From Membranipora membranacea (lineage: Eukaryota; Bryozoa; Gymnolaemata; Cheilostomatida; Membraniporidae), in contig OU612068.1 in NCBI GenBank assembly GCA_914767715.1, positions 16,552,001 to 16,616,000 of the forward strand: DNA of 64,000 bases. Direction: 5' to 3'. The translations under genes and the position numbers were made by a program. Below are positions 40,079-61,000 of the stretch, in pieces. Numbering within the stretch: position 1 is the first letter of the stretch; every line of letters starts with the position of its first letter. The notes beneath the pieces were generated by a model. That model was not told the DNA's origin, searched no databases, and worked only from the letters and a program-made list of their open reading frames with translations.

Positions 40079-43000
40079 CTAGTAAAGGAAAGTAGCCAGC
40101 ATAGCCAAAGTTATTGCTGCCAAGCTTCGGTGTTGGGTCACAGAGGTCGCTGAGCTCGGCTGACCTGGTGTTGTAGAAGCTGCTGGCGTTGGCACAAGAG
40201 GAATTCTCAAACTGCCCCAATCATAGGTAGAGCTTTTCTTGTAAAATACCGGAGGCTGTCCAAGTGGGGCTGGCACTGTCACATCGGTCTGAAATTAAAG
40301 CAGATAGTGTCAAAATTTCATGGAAAACTCAGATATTTCATCACATTTTTATCAATATGAAAAACTTTGTACGAAAACACAAAAATCAAACATAATATTG
40401 AATATCAGAATCTTTTCTTTCCTCAACAATTCAGCATGTCTTGACAAATTTCCTTGGATTTCCCTTGCAATGAAAAGAAGGCATAAGGGAAAGTATTCAT
40501 AATGCTTAACAAGTAAATGCCATTGCAAGCCTCAGTGTGCTGTTGCTTTTTATCATTAAAACCACCATGTGACTAGACTATGTGATGTTGATTGAGTTAC
40601 CGCTCCATTATACTCTTTTTCAGACCATAGATGAATCCAAGTGCCAGGAGGTAGGTAACAAGTCCATCGTGTGACATTCGGCTGAAAGAGACAGGTTTAT
40701 GTGTAACAGATCAGTATGGTATTAAGTGTAAACGGAAAATTAAATATTCAGTCACTCAACCGTTATTCTTGGGGTATAAGTAACTATGTATTATCAAGGA
40801 GTTAGAGTGTCTCTAACTCCTTGGTATTATGAACAGTTCAACCTTCACATGGGAGTGCTTCCATACTTAATATCTTTCAAGCCCCCATCCTCTGAGAATT
40901 TCAGCAGTTCTATGGTATTTTATGGTTTATGAAGAGGTATACACCCGAGGGTGTTGGGGGCTGGAACAATCAACCTTGAAAGCTCCCCCAATGGGATTCG
41001 AACCAACAACTCTTGCGGCACTAATCGCCTGGCAGTGAGTAGCAAGTGCGCTAACCGATTGCATTGCGCCACCTAACCATCCCCAAAAAAGAATGGGTTG
41101 ATGGCGCTAATTAGCATGCCCGCTATTCACTACTCAGAGTTGTGCTCTCTTGTCCCATAGCTAATGCCACTCCACCATTGCCACCCTATGCAACAAAGCG
41201 TATGTGTTAGGGTTGTTGGCCTTACATGGCCCATTGCTATTATTAGATTTTATCATATGGTCACAATGATCACAGCGTTTTGCTGCAATGCCGTAATTTA
41301 TTGCCATGTCATCTTTGTCAGGAGGTATTATGCCTATGGTGTCTATATATGGGCGTATAAATATTTGTATTTGATACCTCAAGAACGGGAGCCACAAGCA
41401 GCTCACTGCCGTATATATACTGATGCTCGATCTTCCAGCTGTGTGTGTCCTGTGGATACTCATAAAAAAGCGCCCTCTGCAGCGGTTCACCAGTCTGTGT
41501 GTATGTGTCTATGGCAGATTGTGTGTAGTTATTCAGTGCTTTGAACATGTTAACAAGTCGGGCAAACTGCTTCATTGTGTCATCGTCTGTATACAGCTGC
41601 CAGTTCTCTGTGGGGCGGTTACCTAAAAAATCAAAACTGTGTCATTCGGGCCTGTTTATTGATTATGCCAAGTGGTGAAGCAATTTCTCCTAGAACAGCA
41701 ACCTTGCGCCCAAGATAAATCAACGCGTGTATGATTTGGCACAGAAAGCTCATAAGCACAAGACTAGACTCCTCAGCAATGGAGGAACCTGGTGTGAAAT
41801 ATTTTGTACTTGGAATTCCATTTAATTCACCTTGCTTCAACTTGGAATTCAGCCCAAATAAAATGTTTATGCAGTTTGGTATACTTATATGCTAGTAAGT
41901 GGGAGTTAAAAGTATCATGGCTTTAATAATATGTCCACATGTAATTTTCTACCTTGCTAGCCTTCTATTTTTCAACGAATTTGATCAAATAATAAAGTTG
42001 ATACAAATGATTGAACAATTGAACAAAAATCAACCAGTTGAATTTACTGCTTTTCAGGAGATATATACTCCAGAGGGTACAGGTGGCTAGAACAATTGTG
42101 GGACTCGAACGTATGACTCAGATGGCATTTCGCTAATAAGCAAGTCCGCCATTTACTCTTTGGAGTTGCACACTCACTTCCCAGAGCACAATCCATTCCA
42201 CCATTGCAACGCAACTTATTGGTCTTACTTGGCCCATGACTATGACCCCTATATAAAGGCAAAATTGGTTATGTTATTATATGTATTGTATGGAACAGCC
42301 TTATTGTAGGGATTGGTTTTAAAGTGAACGGTCAAGAGTTTGATTGCGGCAGGTGCGGTAGTGTCAGGAGGAGCATCCGCCCATAATTGCTTCTGTGCCC
42401 CGATAAGTTTATCCATGTATATCCTCTCAGAGTGGTTGGCAAGCAACCCTCATGTCATCTCTGCAGGTCTTTTCAATGTAAGTGGTCCAGAGTTTGATTG
42501 CAGCAGGTGCTGTGGTGTTAGGAGAAGCATCCGCTCGCAATTGCATCTGTGCCCCAATAAGTTTATCAACGTGTATTCTCACAGAGTGGTTTGCAATAAA
42601 GTCTGACCTGTGAGTTTTATTATCTTGACTTGATTCTGGATCTGAATTTGTACATCAGCTGGCAGGTCATTTGTTTTTCCTTTGACTTACCTTCATGGGT
42701 TCTCATAGTGGGAGTAAACACAGCAGCCTCCGCAGATCTAAGAAACAGGTGTTTATCTCTGGTGAGTCCGTATAGACTGGTATAACCTCCTATATCAAAA
42801 TGTGTCATACCAACACCCTGTAATAAAATATTTCTCTTTAGCTAAGACTACAAACTTGAATTAAACTCAACATTTCTGCAGGTTTGAGTGGCTGGCCGTG
42901 TTTATTTTATAGATCAAACAGTATTGGTCCATTGGTGAGCTCCACTGTAATTATATTATGGTGATGGTTACAAGTTCTCCTGCATCACTCAACTTAAAAA

Positions 43001-46000
43001 AAAAAATCTCTATCACAGGATTGACGATTTGTGAGGGAATTTGATGGAGAGAAACAATCATGACAGTCAAATAAAACACTGATCTGAAATAAACTAACTT
43101 GTAATCCAATTGATAGAGCTGCAGGAATAGTTGACGCCAGCCCATCAGATTTGGTGTAGTCCACATTTTGATCTCCAGCCCAGAAAAGCGTTGTGTAGTT
43201 TGAAACACCTAAAATTCAGATCAACGAAAACTACATCACTTATGGTAAACTGTTGTGTCAGTCACGAATGTTTTAGACTAATGACTTCCACATAATCAAC
43301 ACAAGAGTGACACAACCAATGGCGATACGAACCAATTTATATCTGATTGAAAAAAACTTACAAAATAATAAAAATAAGTTAGTGTCTAGCACAGGGGTGC
43401 CCAACCTTCTCATTGAGGGGGCGCATCCACATACTGCAATATCCCTGGGGGCCGCAACCTCACCATAAATCAAACATTCATATATGGGTGTGCAGTATAT
43501 TCATCTCTGCAGTGGAGAATTTATTTATTGGAGCTCACTCAAATGCAATGGTTGGGGAATTCCAAAATACTGTGACTAGATGTAGAGTGTTCCTTATTAT
43601 TGTACAAATGAGGAAAGTGATAAATGTAGGAGTGAAAATTGTTTTCGCGACTACGCGATTTTCTCAAGCGGGTCCGGGGCCACTGGTTGGGCAGCCCTGG
43701 ACTCTAGCACATTGCTAGCAGCCAAGTCCATATGCAGAGTACTTAGATCAAAATAAAAATTATATCATATACCGGGAGTTAACAAACCACATACTGTCTA
43801 AAGCAAGCATACATCTCCAGAAGTGAGTGCGGATAATGAATATATGTAAACATCAGGTATATACCTGCATAACCAGCTCTCATCCAGAAAACAGCTTCCC
43901 CCATCTTGCCGTACTCCTCGAACGCTTCTCTGTTGAGTTTGGCCCAGCGTAGAGGCCACTGGTTGTGCAGCTTAAGAGCAGACTCCCCACTAGAGAATAC
44001 AGCCCCATCTACCATCAAATACTCGCTGAAATCTGCCATCCATCCAGATATCCCCAGATCCAGTGCCTTCTTAACAATGTTTTCTTGTAAAAAAATGGTA
44101 TATCCTTTTTAAACAATTATTGTGTGAGTTGGTTGCAGTACAGAAGCCTTTGAGCAAAAGCCGTATTGTATAATGAGACACCCATATCCTAACACAACTT
44201 GGATTTCAGGCTTTGTTAAAAAACAGTGTGCATGTCACACAAGGAACACGTTATGACTACATGGTTGTCAAACATTTACACAGTATGATATCAAGGCCTC
44301 ATAGCAGCTTACACACCAAGGTATACTGCTCAGCATTACGACTGCAACTTACGTTTATACCATTCAATAGCAGGCTCACTGGTGAGATCTAATGTTCCAC
44401 AGAAGAATTCGCCAAAGTCGGCTATGTATGTTTGTCCTGTTTCATTTTTCACAAAGTGGCCAAGCTTATCAGCCTCTTTGAATAATCGTCCTTCTATATT
44501 GAGATACGGGTTGATGTACGTTAGCACCTTAATGCCCCTTGCATTGAGCTTGGGTATTTCCTTATCCAAGTCTGTAAAAGTCAGAGAAAAAACCTAGAGA
44601 GTTGGCTTTATTGTGGTCACATGATAAATGCAGACATAGGGGATAAAATAGCAATGCTAATTCACCGTATTTTTTGGATAATGAGAACAATCAAACATTC
44701 AATTAACTGATCTAGCCACTAAAAAAACATACTTCACAAAAAGTAGGTGTCTTTCTTGACTGTTTCTTATTTGAAAATGATAACAAAATTTATTGTACCC
44801 AAAACCTTTATTAAAAGTCTTCATTGGCTAAAACACATATCCATATCACATAATCATTTGCGGAGTTATGCTGTCACGTCAAAAGAGGAGAGAACTCCTT
44901 ACTAGAAGTTCCATGGTTTGGTTGGCTCAATATTTATATCTCATTTCCTTGATGTACTATTTATTGGTTGGAACAGAGATTGGCCATTGAGAGGCTTGAG
45001 ATCTTAACTAAAATTCTTTAACTTGAAAGTGAAAAGCGCTATTGCAAAACGCCAAGAATTAGGGTGCCTACATTTTCAAAAGGATGCAAAAAAACAGCAT
45101 AGCCGTCTATTGAAAAAGTACCAAACTAAACCTTTACAAGAAAATTCATCAACTGCATCACTGAGTTTATACAACTTCTAATTAAATCTCAAGAACCTAT
45201 CACTCACCTGGATATTGTTCTGGGTTCCATTCCCAGTTCCAAAAAACTCGTTTCCCAAATGAAGTTCTGATTTTACCAGCCCAGTCTTGAATCCATACAG
45301 CAGCAACAGTAACCCCAGCAGCTTCAACTTTATCTATCAGCTCATGCATCTATGAGTAAATAAAGAACTTCCTATTAAGATTTTACACACAATGTCACAA
45401 TTAAAGACTTACTTCAGAAAAGATCAGCCAACTGAGCACACATCTGGTTAGTTGTGGATATCATAGAAGTAGTTGTGGTGAAGTAGAAAGTACACAAAGA
45501 CAATGGTTGATAACATGCTCAAAACTGAGCACCATTTGATGTAAGCGATAAGCAGGCAGTGTATGTGGTAGCAGTTCCATTACCAATACGCAACCTGTAG
45601 AAAGCATTAAGCGGCAGTATGAAAATAATTCTAACCAAGTGTGTACAAACATTTTCCAATTCCTATAAAAAAAAAGACGCATAACATGACTCAGTTACAA
45701 TTGCTGATAAATGAATCTGCAACTTATTGCAAATAAAATTACTGAGTGCCTCAAAGTTACCCTCTCGGTTCCTCCCTGAAGGCCAATTATTGCTCCAGTT
45801 CCAAGCCAGCCTGGTAGTTTTGGCATATGACCATGCATATTAGCTAGTCCTTGAGAGAGTTCTGCAACTGTCTTCCCCGTCCCACCAGCAACTTTCAGTG
45901 TCCTTCAAAATGAATATGTGTAATCATGTAGTGGATAGTTAAACGTATTGCAATATGCAATATTTTCCTTACCGTGTATTGATTGCAGTTGCAGTGCTAT

Positions 46001-48755
46001 ATTTTGAATCAGCATTATTGTCTCAATTGCCCGCAAGACCAATTTTCTTTTTACATTAGAAGGCATTGGAAGTTTTAAACGATGACCTAAGTGATAGGAT
46101 TGTATGTTGGTCAGCTTATTAGAATTGAAGCTGGCATTTCCATCGTGTAAAATCTGAACATTGGGAACATACTGCTCATTTTCACACCCAATCTATAAAC
46201 TCACTTCACATTTCCATGGATTTCAAGCTCATGGTATTTCTTATCCGTGAAATCTAGGATGGTGTAGTACGTTGACTGTGAATGAACCATATAGCCTCTG
46301 TTTGATATGAAAGTAGGCTCTCCATAATAAGTGGTGTGGTAGTCCCCACCCGCACCACCAGCTAGAGTATCGGCTTGGAATGTGATTGAAGAAGATTTGT
46401 TACGCCCAACACCTATGGAAAAAACTCAATTGTCACATCTCTGTGGTCAACCACATGGTGGGAAATATATTCCGGGACTTCTTGCGTGTATATTAATGTT
46501 AAAGCCCGGTCATTTGATGTGAGAGATAGCAGTGGTGGCCAGTTACAAGGTTGATCAAAGTTTAAATGATAATGACAAAGCAAATGCGGCATTGGGTTTT
46601 TTTTTTATCATGAGTCTATTTGCACTAGTACAAATATAGTTCATTTCATATCTACTGATAAGTTGTCACTGTGTCTAATCTATATTTTTACTGGATTGTA
46701 TTATAGCAGCAGAAATCATAGGTTTGGCACAAGGCTTTCCAGTTATTATACAGTCTCGTCGACCATCATCTCAATCTGATACAAACAGTCAAACGCCTCT
46801 GTCTTCTCAGTTTGTGCCCCCTAAAATCTCGCCCCATTGCCCAACAGCCGCCGGCCCAGGGACTGTCCTCTTAGTCTTGTTACAGCTAAAATTTATCCTA
46901 TCATTTTGAATGTGTGGACACCAAGTCATCGATTCAAAACAATCTTGACATGGCATTTAGCTGTTGACGGGTCTGCATACATTACAACTACTCTGATGCG
47001 TGCTCCGAAAATAAAATATAAAAGGCGCTTGTTGCTTCAAGACACACTGCTTTTAAATTACAAACCTTGCTCTCTGGTCCAAATAGGGAATTGTCTCCCT
47101 CTCATATTGAGGTAAGTGAATTGTTCACCGCCTCCATATACGTTCTCATCATCTTCAGCTGTGAACCTGATCCATATTCTGTCATATCCTGCAGGCAGGT
47201 CGCTAAAGTTTATACTAGCAGCGGCATCACCATCAACGAATTCTAATACTACCTAGAATTAGATAAGTTATGAACTTCTATTTTACAAATTTTATTAGCT
47301 ACACATTACAAATTTGGCTATAACAGGAAAATATCTAGTTTAACCGGCAAATATCATGCGATTCATAGGGAGCTGTCTTACATGTCAATCATATGACAAT
47401 CTGGTCTTCAAACCTGTCTTCATTCTTCACTAATCAATTTTTCGACTTAACATAGTGAAAGTTCAAATCCTTCAGTAACCATCATTTAAGATTTCATACT
47501 TTGTATATTTTCCATTTTTCAGTATTGAGACTTATTCCTATGACTCCTCATAAAATTAGTTACCCCTAAATATTATACAGGCACCCCTTGCTTCTTGACC
47601 TGGCATTCTGCCAAGCTACAGAATGTCATACCCTCTACATGCTTGTCATAGAGGCACTTGTTTCATTTTTCCTTTCCACTTTACCACTAAAGAATGGGAT
47701 GTGTGACAGTGTACGGTTAGGGTTTTGTGGAAATGTAGGGAATATGAAGTAGAGGTACAAATCTTGATAAAAGTAGGATTTCCTAAAATAAAATTTTATC
47801 CACAAGTACGGGACAAAATTGTGGGTTTACAAATATTGGCGTCGCACCCGTACTTATTGACTCCATAGCCTGGCATTCTGCCATCCATAATCATCGAAAG
47901 CAACCGCTTAGGATCATCTTGGTATCGTCTGATATATCGGTAACAGGAATGGATCTGATTCCTTGATCCAGCAATACATGCCAGGCCTAATGCTCTAATT
48001 TACAGAAAGCAAACTTGATTGAAGTATAACTTGGTAAAAGGTTTCACTGGGTTTTATAAAAGTACACCATGTTTGGGCATATAGCCTGTCATGGTTGTAA
48101 TTTAGACTTATTGTGCAGGGACCATTCTTCAATTTGTCTTTTGTTTATCTCATCGGCCCCACATTTGTGCTCTCTCTAACTGGAATACCCTAAATATTCA
48201 CTCACCTCGATTGAGGAGTCAGAGGCAGCTGTAAAGCTGAATTTATTACCGGTTTGTCCACCGACAGTGGTTAGAGGTATTCTAGAATAAATCTTATCCT
48301 GAATGTCAAAGTTACCATGATACTCATTGAACACAGTAGACCCAGATCCGAGATAAAGACATGGCTGGTCAGGTTTATGTTCTATAACCTGAAAAAGAAA
48401 ATATTTGAAGTAGTGAGAATCTTTTGGCTTGAGTCGCAACCAGGTGTTCAGTCAAAACAGTTTGATGCTTGCACACTAATGTGCAATGTACGACAAACAA
48501 GAATCATTAACATGAAATGTACTGTTAGTTGGAACAAAATTGATTCAGACAACCAGGCAAATAAACTAAAATGATGCTGCATAAAAATTCAATCTCAAAC
48601 ATTATTGTCGAATCGACTGATAAATTACTTACCAATAAATTGTTGATGCTAGCTTGAAATGTGCCTGAGATGAGGGAATTTGACCAGTTGTTTGCAGCCA
48701 TCGCAATTGCAAGGATTGTGGAAAGTGAATACACTACAGAGCATATTAACCTCAT
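40079..48755 (-). CDS. YihQ-like GH31 sulfoquinovosidase, secretory and probably GPI-anchored
   Basis: Thirteen exons: 48755-48633, 48388-48206, 47252-47066, 46412-46205, 45902-45761, 45349-45208, 44571-44353, 44083-43865, 43208-43099, 42817-42691, 41622-41378, 40681-40601, 40288-40079; 2196 nt, 731 aa, all in frame. It aligns end to end with bacterial YihQ (about 678 aa): QPCLYLGSG, VYGGGEQFTYLNMRG, REQGVGRNK, WMADFSEYL, WAGDQNVDY, HFDIGGYTSLY, FTPTMRTHEGNRP and PVFYKKSS. Catalytic residues: nucleophile D419 (WMADF) and acid/base D487 (AGDQ). The sulfoquinovose-recognition set of E. coli YihQ (Q262, Q288, R301, W304, Y508) has counterparts at Q276, Q302, R315, W318 and Y523. Known chemistry: retaining release of sulfoquinovose from SQDG or its glycerol derivative. 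Residues 1-20 form a signal peptide. The C-terminus ends in a Ser/Thr/Pro linker and a hydrophobic tail (SLAAITLAMLATFLY) typical of GPI signals. Animal GH31 relatives (GAA, MYORG, GANAB) lack this pattern. Confidence 0.93.
40796..40822. repeat. Perfect small palindrome in GH31 intron
   Basis: Arms aaggagttagag and ctctaactcctt with a 3-base centre, between GH31 exons 12 and 11. Confidence 0.7.
40931..41240 (-). mobile_element. tRNA-derived SINE copy 1 in GH31 intron
   Basis: On the minus strand, an A-box-like GGTGGCGCAATGC...GGTTAGCGCAC and a B box GGTTCGAATCCC (about 41075-40985) form a tRNA-related core. Sequence on both sides (gaggg-tg...ggctggaacaat on one side, ccattgcca...ggccttacatggccc on the other) recurs in the same order at 42055-42243, so the two are members of one family. 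Confidence 0.65.
42055..42243 (-). mobile_element. tRNA-derived SINE copy 2, degenerate
   Basis: Diverged relative of the element at 40931-41240. Shared order: gagggt...ggctagaacaat, tgggactcgaac (a weakened B box), gatggc...gctaat, ccattccaccattgc, ttggcccatgac. Lies in the intron between GH31 exons 11 and 10. Confidence 0.6.
42321..42595. repeat. Tandem duplication of a ~120-base unit in GH31 intron
   Basis: Copy 1 (about 42321-42441) and copy 2 (about 42475-42595) share the segments agtttgattgc, gcaggtgc, agcatccgc, ctgtgcccc-ataagttta and cagagtggtt, in order. I estimate 80-85% identity by eye. Copy 1 is open on the minus strand over its whole length; copy 2 has stops in that frame. The unit is not recognised. 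Confidence 0.75.
43392..43701. mobile_element. hAT-type nonautonomous DNA transposon
   Basis: Termini caggggtgcccaacc and ggttgggcagccctg are inverted repeats with one mismatch, and match the CAGGGGTG-start style of hAT elements. The flanks gtctagca and ctctagca look like an imperfect 8-base target duplication. About 310 bases with no coding capacity, in the intron between GH31 exons 9 and 8. Confidence 0.75.
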
Positions 48756-57700: not shown

Positions 57701-58015
57701 TCTTTGTTTAAAGGGCATTGAGATGATGGGATGTGTATTCAGTAAATCGTAATAATCAATTATTGTAGACTTTCATCAGCCTTTGCTTTCCATTGTTTAA
57801 GTGAATGCATACAGCGTTGCTATTGGCAGTTCATTCATTCTCTAAATCTTCACACTGGGCATTCTTTCATTGTAGTAAGATTTGTAGTAAGAGGCACATA
57901 AAGAGGCACATATTTGTTAGGGAGTGATTACCACGAGGTTGTGAATATCAGCTACATTCATCAGGCCTGACAGAGAGCTTAGCAAGAGACAGAACTTGGG
58001 AAGTCAAACCGGGCT
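54718..58015. other. Divergent interval between CAPZA and the SLC7 gene
   Basis: About 3.3 kb between two head-to-head genes. It contains both promoters, unrecognised AT-rich sequence and a decayed non-LTR retrotransposon end (56480-57205). No host coding exon was found. Confidence 0.55.
56480..57205 (+). mobile_element. 5'-truncated non-LTR retrotransposon remnant (reverse transcriptase C-terminal region)
   Basis: Translation shows the end of a reverse transcriptase reading frame: SVKFLGVFVD, then a one-base frameshift near 56620-56625, then the LERVQKAALRVILPE block typical of CR1/Jockey-type elements. A stop follows at about 56855 and a short Arg-rich C-terminus ends at 57112. The copy ends in a caatcaataaaaat tail near 57205. 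The upstream endonuclease and catalytic RT domains are absent. Dead copy; the clade is a guess. Confidence 0.75.
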
Positions 58016-61000
58016 ATGGCATCCAACGGAGGAGATGCCATTGTACGTGGCGACACATTATCTTCAAGCACAGATAAATCGGAAAACGGAGCAGTTGGAC
58101 TGAAAAAGAATCTAGGACTTTTCAATGGAGTTGCGATGGTAGTCGGCTTAGTGGTGGGAAGTGGTATATTTGTATCACCCGTAGGTGTATTATCGAACTC
58201 TGGCAGTGTGGGATTGTCATTAATATTCTGGGCTATTGGAGGTATTACAGCCGCGATTGGATCGATGTGCTATGTGGAACTGGGAACTTCCATACAAAGC
58301 AGCGGGGGAGACTACGCTTATATAGGTATTATCACTTTTTATTCTCCCTGTTATACATTTTTATTCTGGTGGGCCACCCTGTGTCAGCCCTGAAGCGCAG
58401 GTTAATTTATTATTTCCATAAGCTTCTGGAATCATATGAATACATACATTGCCTAATGTCAGATGCCAATGAATTTTTAACCAGAAGGCAATGTGAATTG
58501 TGAGTACGCCAGTAAAACGCATTGTATGGTTCTTGCCAGGACAGCGTTGGATATTATTTTTGCCAGTCTGTTTAGAGGAATGAAAAGGTTTTGAATATCT
58601 GGTGGAATTGCTCTGGCTGAATCTGGCATGGATTAATTTCAGACAGCACTTATGTAACAAGTTTATAAACAATGGCTTAATAATAGAGCTAAGTGTATGC
58701 TCTTGGTTTTTTGTCCCTGGCATGGTTGATTATGCCTGCAGGATTTCTTATCAACTCTTTGACCTGTAAGTTCTCAAAATTAACCTAATTTGCAATGACT
58801 AGCATGACAGAGTTGCATAACTTCAGACAAAGGTTTTTAAATTCAGTGCCAATTTGAAGGATTGAAGCTAATCCAATATTTGAATTCAAGCTATTCAAAA
58901 AAGACCGTTGAATTCAATACAAACTTGATTAATAGCTAGCATGTTGTTTTCTTTGTTTTGCAGGAAAAGCGTTCGGACCAGTGCTTCAGTTTATGTTTGT
59001 GTGGGCATTTCTGCTGATCGTATTTCCCATAGCCAACGCAATCATATCCCTCATATTTGCCAACTACATCCTAGTGCCCATTTATCAAGACTGCACGCCT
59101 CCAAACACTGCTGTCACGCTTGTGGCAGCATTCGTAATAGGTACGTGTCGCTCCTGTCATTTTTGCCACTCAGACATTTTCCTTGAAGAGAAAGTGTATT
59201 TGTGCTGCATCGTACATAATTAGCGTACAATTCATAACACAGTCAATAAATGCCACTTTTGAAACCCTCATGAATATTCTTGCTATGCTGCCTTGGAGAT
59301 TATATCCATACAGCTTGGGTAATGTCTAGCCCCCCCCCCCACACTTGTTCGTTTTTTTTTTCACAATATTAATGGATCGGTCTAATTAAAGCCTACAGTG
59401 ATTGAGTAACATATCCATAGACAAAAAAACATATGTGTTTTGCCTCTGAAAATCTCACTAAAACACTCAACGTTGCAGAGTTTTGCACCAGGCCTTTGTT
59501 TAGCCTTATGAGAAGAATTAACTGGTAAAAACAAATGCTGTCAGGTCACTGGCAGCTACTCATCTTAATTAGAATCTAGTGATTGCAATGTACTTTATAT
59601 AAAAAAACCTCAAGCTATACAATGTCCATAGACTTAATAATTATCATTCAGTCTATGTTTGCAGTCTCATACTTGGAACAAACTTTCTCCCCTTGCTTGT
59701 AACTGATTATGTCAGCCTGTTATTCCGTGCACCAATATATCATGTCAAATAATCCGCCTCTTTGTCCAATTTTAGTTTTACTATCTGTGATAAATTGTGT
59801 AAATGTGACCTGGGCTGCCAGGGTACAGAATGTGTTCCTGATAATGAAGGTACTAGCTCTAGTGGTGATATCTGTCACTGGATTCGTCTGGATAGCTCAA
59901 GGTGAGACAGTAGGACTAACCATAATGCCCTCTGCAAACCTACCCTTCCCAAATACTATTATATTAAATGGAATTAGAACCTGTTTTTCTCTGCATTTGT
60001 TGGGCGCTCTTGAAACCTCCAGACGCTTCCTTGTGGAAGAAAGCCCTGGAACCCTGGTATCACCATGAAATTGTTTTGGTGATAGGACCAGTACAAGAGT
60101 GGCCTGTGTTGAAATATGGCTTATGATAGACAAAACAAAAAACAGGTAGCGATTATTGAGGACGTCATTTTGATGTCCTCTATCTGCTTCCAGTCTTTGG
60201 GCTGGTAGTTTACAGCCACATATTATATTCCTAAACTAATATTTATAAGGCAGTGAAAAGATATCGAGTTTAACTTTTATTTTTGTGAATGTCATTCATC
60301 ATTAAAATAGTTTGGTTAATTTTGTAACGAGAGACAGTTTTATCTCAGCAAGACTGCCAAGTTGTCCAAGAACACAGGATATCGTTCACACACTTCTCAT
60401 TTTGAAATGCTCTCTTCTGATGTGGTTATTCTAGTGCAAGATATTTGACATACTGTGGTTAATACAGTAATAGGAACCTTCTCATTGTCACACTTGTCTT
60501 AACACAGGCAGTTATTTGACTGGACATTGTATCACCCAGAGACCAGGGAGGGTGGATCCCTCCCACCCTCCCTGCAGAAACTAACCCATCCTTGTGTTAC
60601 ACAAACATATGAAAATATTTGAATTCTTTTCCTAGTGGGACATCATGAGACACTGCAGAGTATCAGAGACTCCTTGTAGATAATAAGAACATCTAAGACC
60701 ATCGTATTCACTGCACTGTAGATGTACAATTTTTTTCATTCATTGTTGGTAGGTAAAACTCAGTTCTGGGACGACCCATGGGAGGGTACGAGTTACGCCC
60801 CTGTAGATTGGGCCAGAGCTATCTACTCTGGAGTTTATTCTTACGCTGGATGGTAAGTAGCTGATTATGTCTTGTTGTCCGACACACAGAAAAATACATG
60901 TCTCGGAATTTGAGCTGCAATCACAAATGCATAAAATAAAAATAGTAACAGCTATAATAGTACCATAATCTGCACTCAGTAACTGGCTACAATTTAAAAA

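Follow-up and report, generated by a model that had tools for sequence, protein, structure and literature searches.

The closest described relatives of the gene analysed here are the bacterial GH31 sulfoquinovosidases, which release a sulfur-bearing sugar from the lipids of plants and algae, namely E. coli YihQ (structures 5aed and 5oht), the A. tumefaciens SQase (5ohs and 5ohy), E. rectale SftG (6pnr) and BmSQase (8r56). In YihQ, we take Q262, Q288, R301, W304 and Y508 to bind the sulfonate and the sugar, D405 to be the nucleophile and D472 to be the acid/base. Published work on these enzymes names D405 as a catalytic residue (PMC11968277) and gives kcat/KM values between about 1e5 and 6e5 per M per s for bacterial enzymes acting on pNP-SQ (Table 1 of the same paper). 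The same net reaction is carried out by the NAD-dependent sulfoquinovosidases of GH188 (SqgA), which belong to a different family, use an oxidoreductive mechanism and are reported from bacteria, algae and plants as well as a few archaea (PMC10755693). The usual animal GH31 enzymes, GAA, MGAM, GANAB and MYORG, have the GH31 fold and the catalytic Asp pair in common with the enzyme described below.

Published work on GH31 sulfoquinovosidases and sulfoquinovose (SQ) degradation, as far as it is represented by open-licence articles seen in part, concerns bacterial GH31, GH188 and negative findings in mouse and human (PMC12890257, PMC13219744, PMC12330013, PMC10755693, PMC11968277). Among these, a 2025 study calls SQ degradation by animals unclear and reports that neither germ-free mice nor cells of a human gut line degraded it (PMC12330013). 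We found no published study of an animal GH31 sulfoquinovosidase among the open-licence articles listed, mostly as titles and abstract openings, which agrees with the statement in the original prediction that no biochemical work on an animal enzyme was known. Two articles considered as possible animal-enzyme papers, PMC12542681 and PMC7281551, were rejected, as each mentions the enzyme once, the former in a Vibrio gene table and the latter in a reference. The presence of such genes in animals is already on record, since NCBI has automatically named many animal copies 'sulfoquinovosidase-like'; proteins of this name from Watersipora, Ptychodera, Patella, Mytilus, Asterias, Branchiostoma and others fall in the same clade as the protein studied here, with nearly the same residues and mostly the same ends.

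The window, a 64,000-nucleotide stretch of the genome of the bryozoan Membranipora membranacea at 16552001-16616000 of contig C4, contains a gene on its minus strand at 48755..40079 whose 13 exons join into a frame of 2196 nt encoding 731 amino acids; the predicted length and coordinates were recovered when we rebuilt this frame. From the ATG (48753-48755) to the stop codon (40079-40081), the exons lie at 48633..48755, 48206..48388, 47066..47252, 46205..46412, 45761..45902, 45208..45349, 44353..44571, 43865..44083, 43099..43208, 42691..42817, 41378..41622, 40601..40681 and 40079..40288, the last including the stop codon. The joins were chosen by eye with GT...AG as the rule, so that the presence of these dinucleotides at all 12 introns follows by construction; independent support comes from alignment of the spliced protein, across its exon joins, with proteins from Watersipora, Ptychodera and Lottia. 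The gene model presented here is a set of predicted exon joins.

The protein scores 818.6 bits against the NCBIfam equivalog NF007746 (cut-off 553), whose own description reads 'alpha-glucosidase' and which is tied to YihQ by its PRK10426 number and by the PDB scores given below, and falls far under the cut-offs of the NCBIfam alpha-xylosidase and MalA models. Three GH31 Pfam domains were found: PF01055 (144.2 bits, cut-off 23.5), PF21365 (81.8, cut-off 24.4) and PF13802 (33.8, cut-off 27). Among the 60 best of 64 PDB matches, six sulfoquinovosidases score 604.6-656.7 bits and the next GH31 structure 144.7, the top match being 6pnr, the E. rectale SftG that is described as cleaving pNP-SQ (PMC11968277). 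This score gap, the tree with the E. coli GH31 alpha-xylosidase YicI as a very long-branched outgroup, and the careful tree described below set the protein with the known sulfoquinovosidases and apart from other GH31 enzymes. A predicted structure from Watersipora, with 41-44% identity to solved bacterial sulfoquinovosidases, likewise fits these far better than other GH31 enzymes; near the active site the model is less sure at residues 691-700 (pLDDT 55) and 721-730 (pLDDT 67). The first 190 or so residues of this Watersipora subatra protein (P0001) are of low confidence, repetitive and SMIDV-rich, and this N-terminal extension is probably a gene-model error.

All seven residues named in the original prediction stand at the numbers given there in the spliced protein, and alignment with YihQ places them opposite their counterparts at an offset of 14 for the first five and 15 for the last two. 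On the minus strand, the codon for Q276 (YihQ Q262) is at 45776..45778; exon 6 carries Q302 (Q288; 45287-45289), R315 (R301; 45248-45250) and W318 (W304; 45239-45241), exon 8 carries D419 (D405; 44031-44033), exon 9 D487 (D472; 43171-43173) and exon 10 Y523 (Y508; 42782-42784). The QQRWY recognition set (Q276, Q302, R315, W318 and Y523) is therefore complete in the alignment, and both catalytic aspartates, D419 and D487, are present. YicI, included as a control for chance matching, has S, K, a gap, C, D, D and F at the seven columns, that is, the catalytic Asp pair only, and judged by this control the match of the window protein to YihQ exceeds chance. The scores against the family model and the solved structures, the place in the tree and the seven residues together assign the window gene to the YihQ-type GH31 sulfoquinovosidases, with which it has in common the family, the fold, both catalytic residues and the recognition set; the predicted identity is borne out, and in the tree described below the protein falls among sulfoquinovosidases, not in a GH31 clade of another specificity. 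Its identification as an ordinary animal GH31 enzyme was rejected on the PDB score gap, the NCBIfam scores and the tree.

We also searched the genome (339,339,785 bases in 18 contigs, with a few small pieces missing relative to the published assembly) for further GH31 genes. Six other GH31 loci account for 23 Pfam GH31 barrel matches. In translations read by eye, the place of Q276 could be read in five of them and holds W in four and Y in one, so that the expectation that usual animal GH31 enzymes lack the recognition set holds for five of the six; the sixth (C1) is presumably MYORG-like. No QGG, QDW or KRxxW text was seen in the stretches read. A 292-residue core query gave six matches among the best candidates scored, all at the window locus, and no second copy of the sulfoquinovosidase gene. 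The genome note for this species gives 339.4 Mb in 21 scaffolds and names kelp blades as the commonest place of encounter (PMC10290214).

Beyond the original prediction, we observed a signal-like start, a hydrophobic C-terminal tail and a single clade of animal copies. The signal-peptide-like start spans codons 1-20 (48696..48755, minus strand), with a best 15-residue hydropathy of 2.21 in the first 40 residues. At the other end, a Pro/Ser/Thr-rich stretch is followed by 15 hydrophobic residues directly before the stop codon (codons 717-731, SLAAITLAMLATFLY, 40082..40126, minus strand), and this arrangement is GPI-signal-like, as GPI signals consist of a Pro/Ser/Thr-rich stretch followed by a hydrophobic C-terminal end. 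Scoring an end as hydrophobic when its mean hydropathy over 15 residues reached 1.6 or more, a threshold of our own, we found a hydrophobic start in 27 of 35 animal-clade sequences and a hydrophobic tail in 29 of 35. Among the 188 other sequences, two show a hydrophobic start (Paramecium P0144 and P0027) and none a hydrophobic tail (highest value 1.17). Of the animal sequences that lack the start, several seem to come from truncated gene models; the hydrophobic start scored in Watersipora is probably a gene-model artefact. There are seven N-x-S/T sequons in the window protein, and the mean is 6.5 in animal sequences against 1.5 elsewhere. With their signal-like start and hydrophobic tail, the animal enzymes look retargeted, and the bacterial enzyme family appears to have a membrane-targeted animal branch whose activity and role are predicted. 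From the hydropathy of its ends, the window enzyme is likely to be anchored at the surface, most likely by GPI here, with a transmembrane helix as the putative anchor in some relatives.

Taken together, these features would probably be explained by a bryozoan gene for a retaining alpha-sulfoquinovosidase of the YihQ type, whose product is secreted and held at the cell surface, where it acts on dietary sulfolipid. The protein would pass through the secretory pathway, acquire N-glycans and stay at the cell surface via its C-terminal tail. There it would meet sulfoquinovosyl (diacyl)glycerol ingested with phytoplankton or kelp. Q276, Q302, R315, W318 and Y523 would bind the sugar and the sulfonate while D419 attacks the anomeric carbon and D487 protonates the leaving glycerol group; water would then release sulfoquinovose. 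We predict activity on SQ glycosides with high confidence, and a digestive role in the gut with modest confidence. The residues predict, as was first proposed, that the animal can remove sulfoquinovose from SQDG, while falling short of proof of activity; the further suggestion that photosymbionts supply the sulfolipid is supported by no result of this analysis.

The strongest alternative keeps the enzyme a sulfoquinovosidase and replaces gut digestion by an intracellular or body-fluid role in which it clears sulfonated glycosides, sulfolipid among them; the tail would then be a simple membrane helix or belong to a sorting signal. The tail is absent from six of the 35 animal-clade sequences, and three of these end instead in ADEL (P0007, Ptychodera), HEEL (P0008, Antedon) or KDEL (P0033, Diadema setosum). 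Since KDEL-type C-termini mark ER-resident proteins, this suggests that these copies are retained in the ER, and the animal family is accordingly not uniformly surface-bound. In addition, two of the three Branchiostoma tails extend past the hydrophobic stretch with basic residues, a mark of transmembrane proteins. Against such a role, the window protein terminates within its hydrophobic stretch and most of the animal clade has the tail, and we regard this alternative as doubtful for the bryozoan enzyme.

It is less probable still, and in our judgement unlikely, that the animal enzymes have shifted to a different substrate, such as a 6-modified (for example sulfated or phosphorylated) alpha-glucoside or a host glycan, with the sulfonate-binding residues kept. 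Five of 33 animal sequences differ from the full set solely by F at Y508, and a sixth, Nucella lapillus P0047, reads Q, M, K, W, D, D and F at the seven columns, so that Y508F is accompanied there by Q288M and R301K; in addition, the stem branch of the animals measures 0.37 changes per column. A shift of this kind is opposed by the complete set in the window protein and in 27 of the 33 animal sequences, and by the Watersipora model, whose predicted fold sides with the sulfoquinovosidases. The complete set is likewise found in 185 of 188 non-animal sequences, and these high counts partly reflect selection, as the sequences were picked as top hits. With all seven residues in 27 of the 33 animal sequences, the enzyme is not peculiar to this animal. 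The two N. lapillus paralogues carry adjacent numbers (ACOMHN_021586 and 021587); one is P0047, which retains both aspartates and is a candidate for changed specificity, and the other departs by Y508F alone.

The origin of the animal copies was examined with two trees, built from 21 of 80 bacterial loci and the animal sequences except Saccostrea echinata, P0165, P0173 and P0201, the animals having been sampled from the best 120 matches of each of three sequence searches. A quick tree of 68 sequences was rooted on YicI, with its first fork open. A careful tree of 61, from which seven of the 68 had been dropped (YicI, three long-branch bacteria and three near-duplicates), was rooted on three bacterial sequences and is the source of the branch length given above. 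In both trees the animal clade comprises 29 named animal sequences and two further contigs and is nested among bacterial sulfoquinovosidases. The careful tree unites the bryozoan, brachiopod, mollusc, echinoderm, hemichordate and amphioxus copies at 100/100 and the bryozoans, brachiopod and molluscs at 96/93; the order of phyla within the clade is weakly resolved, and SAR324 is a weak sister to it (88/97). As the two contigs, which have no taxon name, sit inside the clade, the named-animal label by itself takes three changes on the tree. By name, no vertebrate or tunicate copy appeared among the best 120 matches of the amphioxus query, and no annelid, arthropod, cnidarian or vertebrate copy among the best 120 matches listed for the other two queries; these matches include sequences without a species name, and the absence of a phylum from them may not be real.

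We consider it likely that these relationships reflect the capture of a single bacterial gene by an early bilaterian, followed by vertical inheritance with losses. The naming of only some phyla among the matches listed, and the nesting among bacteria, would also fit several independent captures. One fully supported animal clade with the lophotrochozoans together, hydrophobic tails common to several phyla, and the rejection of a grouping of bryozoans with SAR324 (a cost of 100.9 log units, p-AU 8e-5, SAR324 having been chosen after inspection of the tree) weigh against this and make it very improbable. Paramecium sonneborni P0144 lies outside the animal clade with all seven residues, a signal-like start and no tail, hinting at a separate eukaryotic acquisition. 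A fuller scenario, in which the early bilaterian captured one sulfoquinovosidase gene and added a signal and an anchor, many marine invertebrates digest sulfolipid, and ER-retained copies serve a second, intracellular role in some lineages, seems to us evenly poised. If it were true, part of the release of sulfoquinovose in the ocean would be due to animals and not to microbes alone. A sulfoquinovosidase that is conserved among marine invertebrates and apparently sits at the cell surface makes the question of animal SQ degradation directly testable, and it would shift the opening step of SQ release into host tissue in some animals that filter-feed or graze.

Bacterial contamination or a pseudogene, for which we found no supporting point, was rejected as having a negligible chance of explaining the gene given its twelve introns and open frame, its location inside a contig of chromosome size, the occurrence in another bryozoan of a copy 66% identical to it, and the neighbouring frames. 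E. coli yihQ lies amid SQ-catabolism genes, whereas the bryozoan gene has introns and no SQ-catabolism gene among the ten neighbouring frames tested with Pfam. Three of these ten gave a match and seven did not, the matches near the gene including a DUF2046 piece (74.8 bits) and amino-acid permease pieces of 39.7 and 25.4 bits, the latter under the cut-off of 27; the permease exon pieces lie at 57983-60065 on the plus strand. ARAGORN called no tRNA genes in the window. By eye, a tRNA-like stretch is visible at about 40940-41090 on the minus strand, in the intron between exons 11 and 12, and is maybe a SINE. The intron between exons 10 and 11 contains two direct copies of 126 nt, 83% alike, at 42317-42596, spaced 154 nt from start to start.
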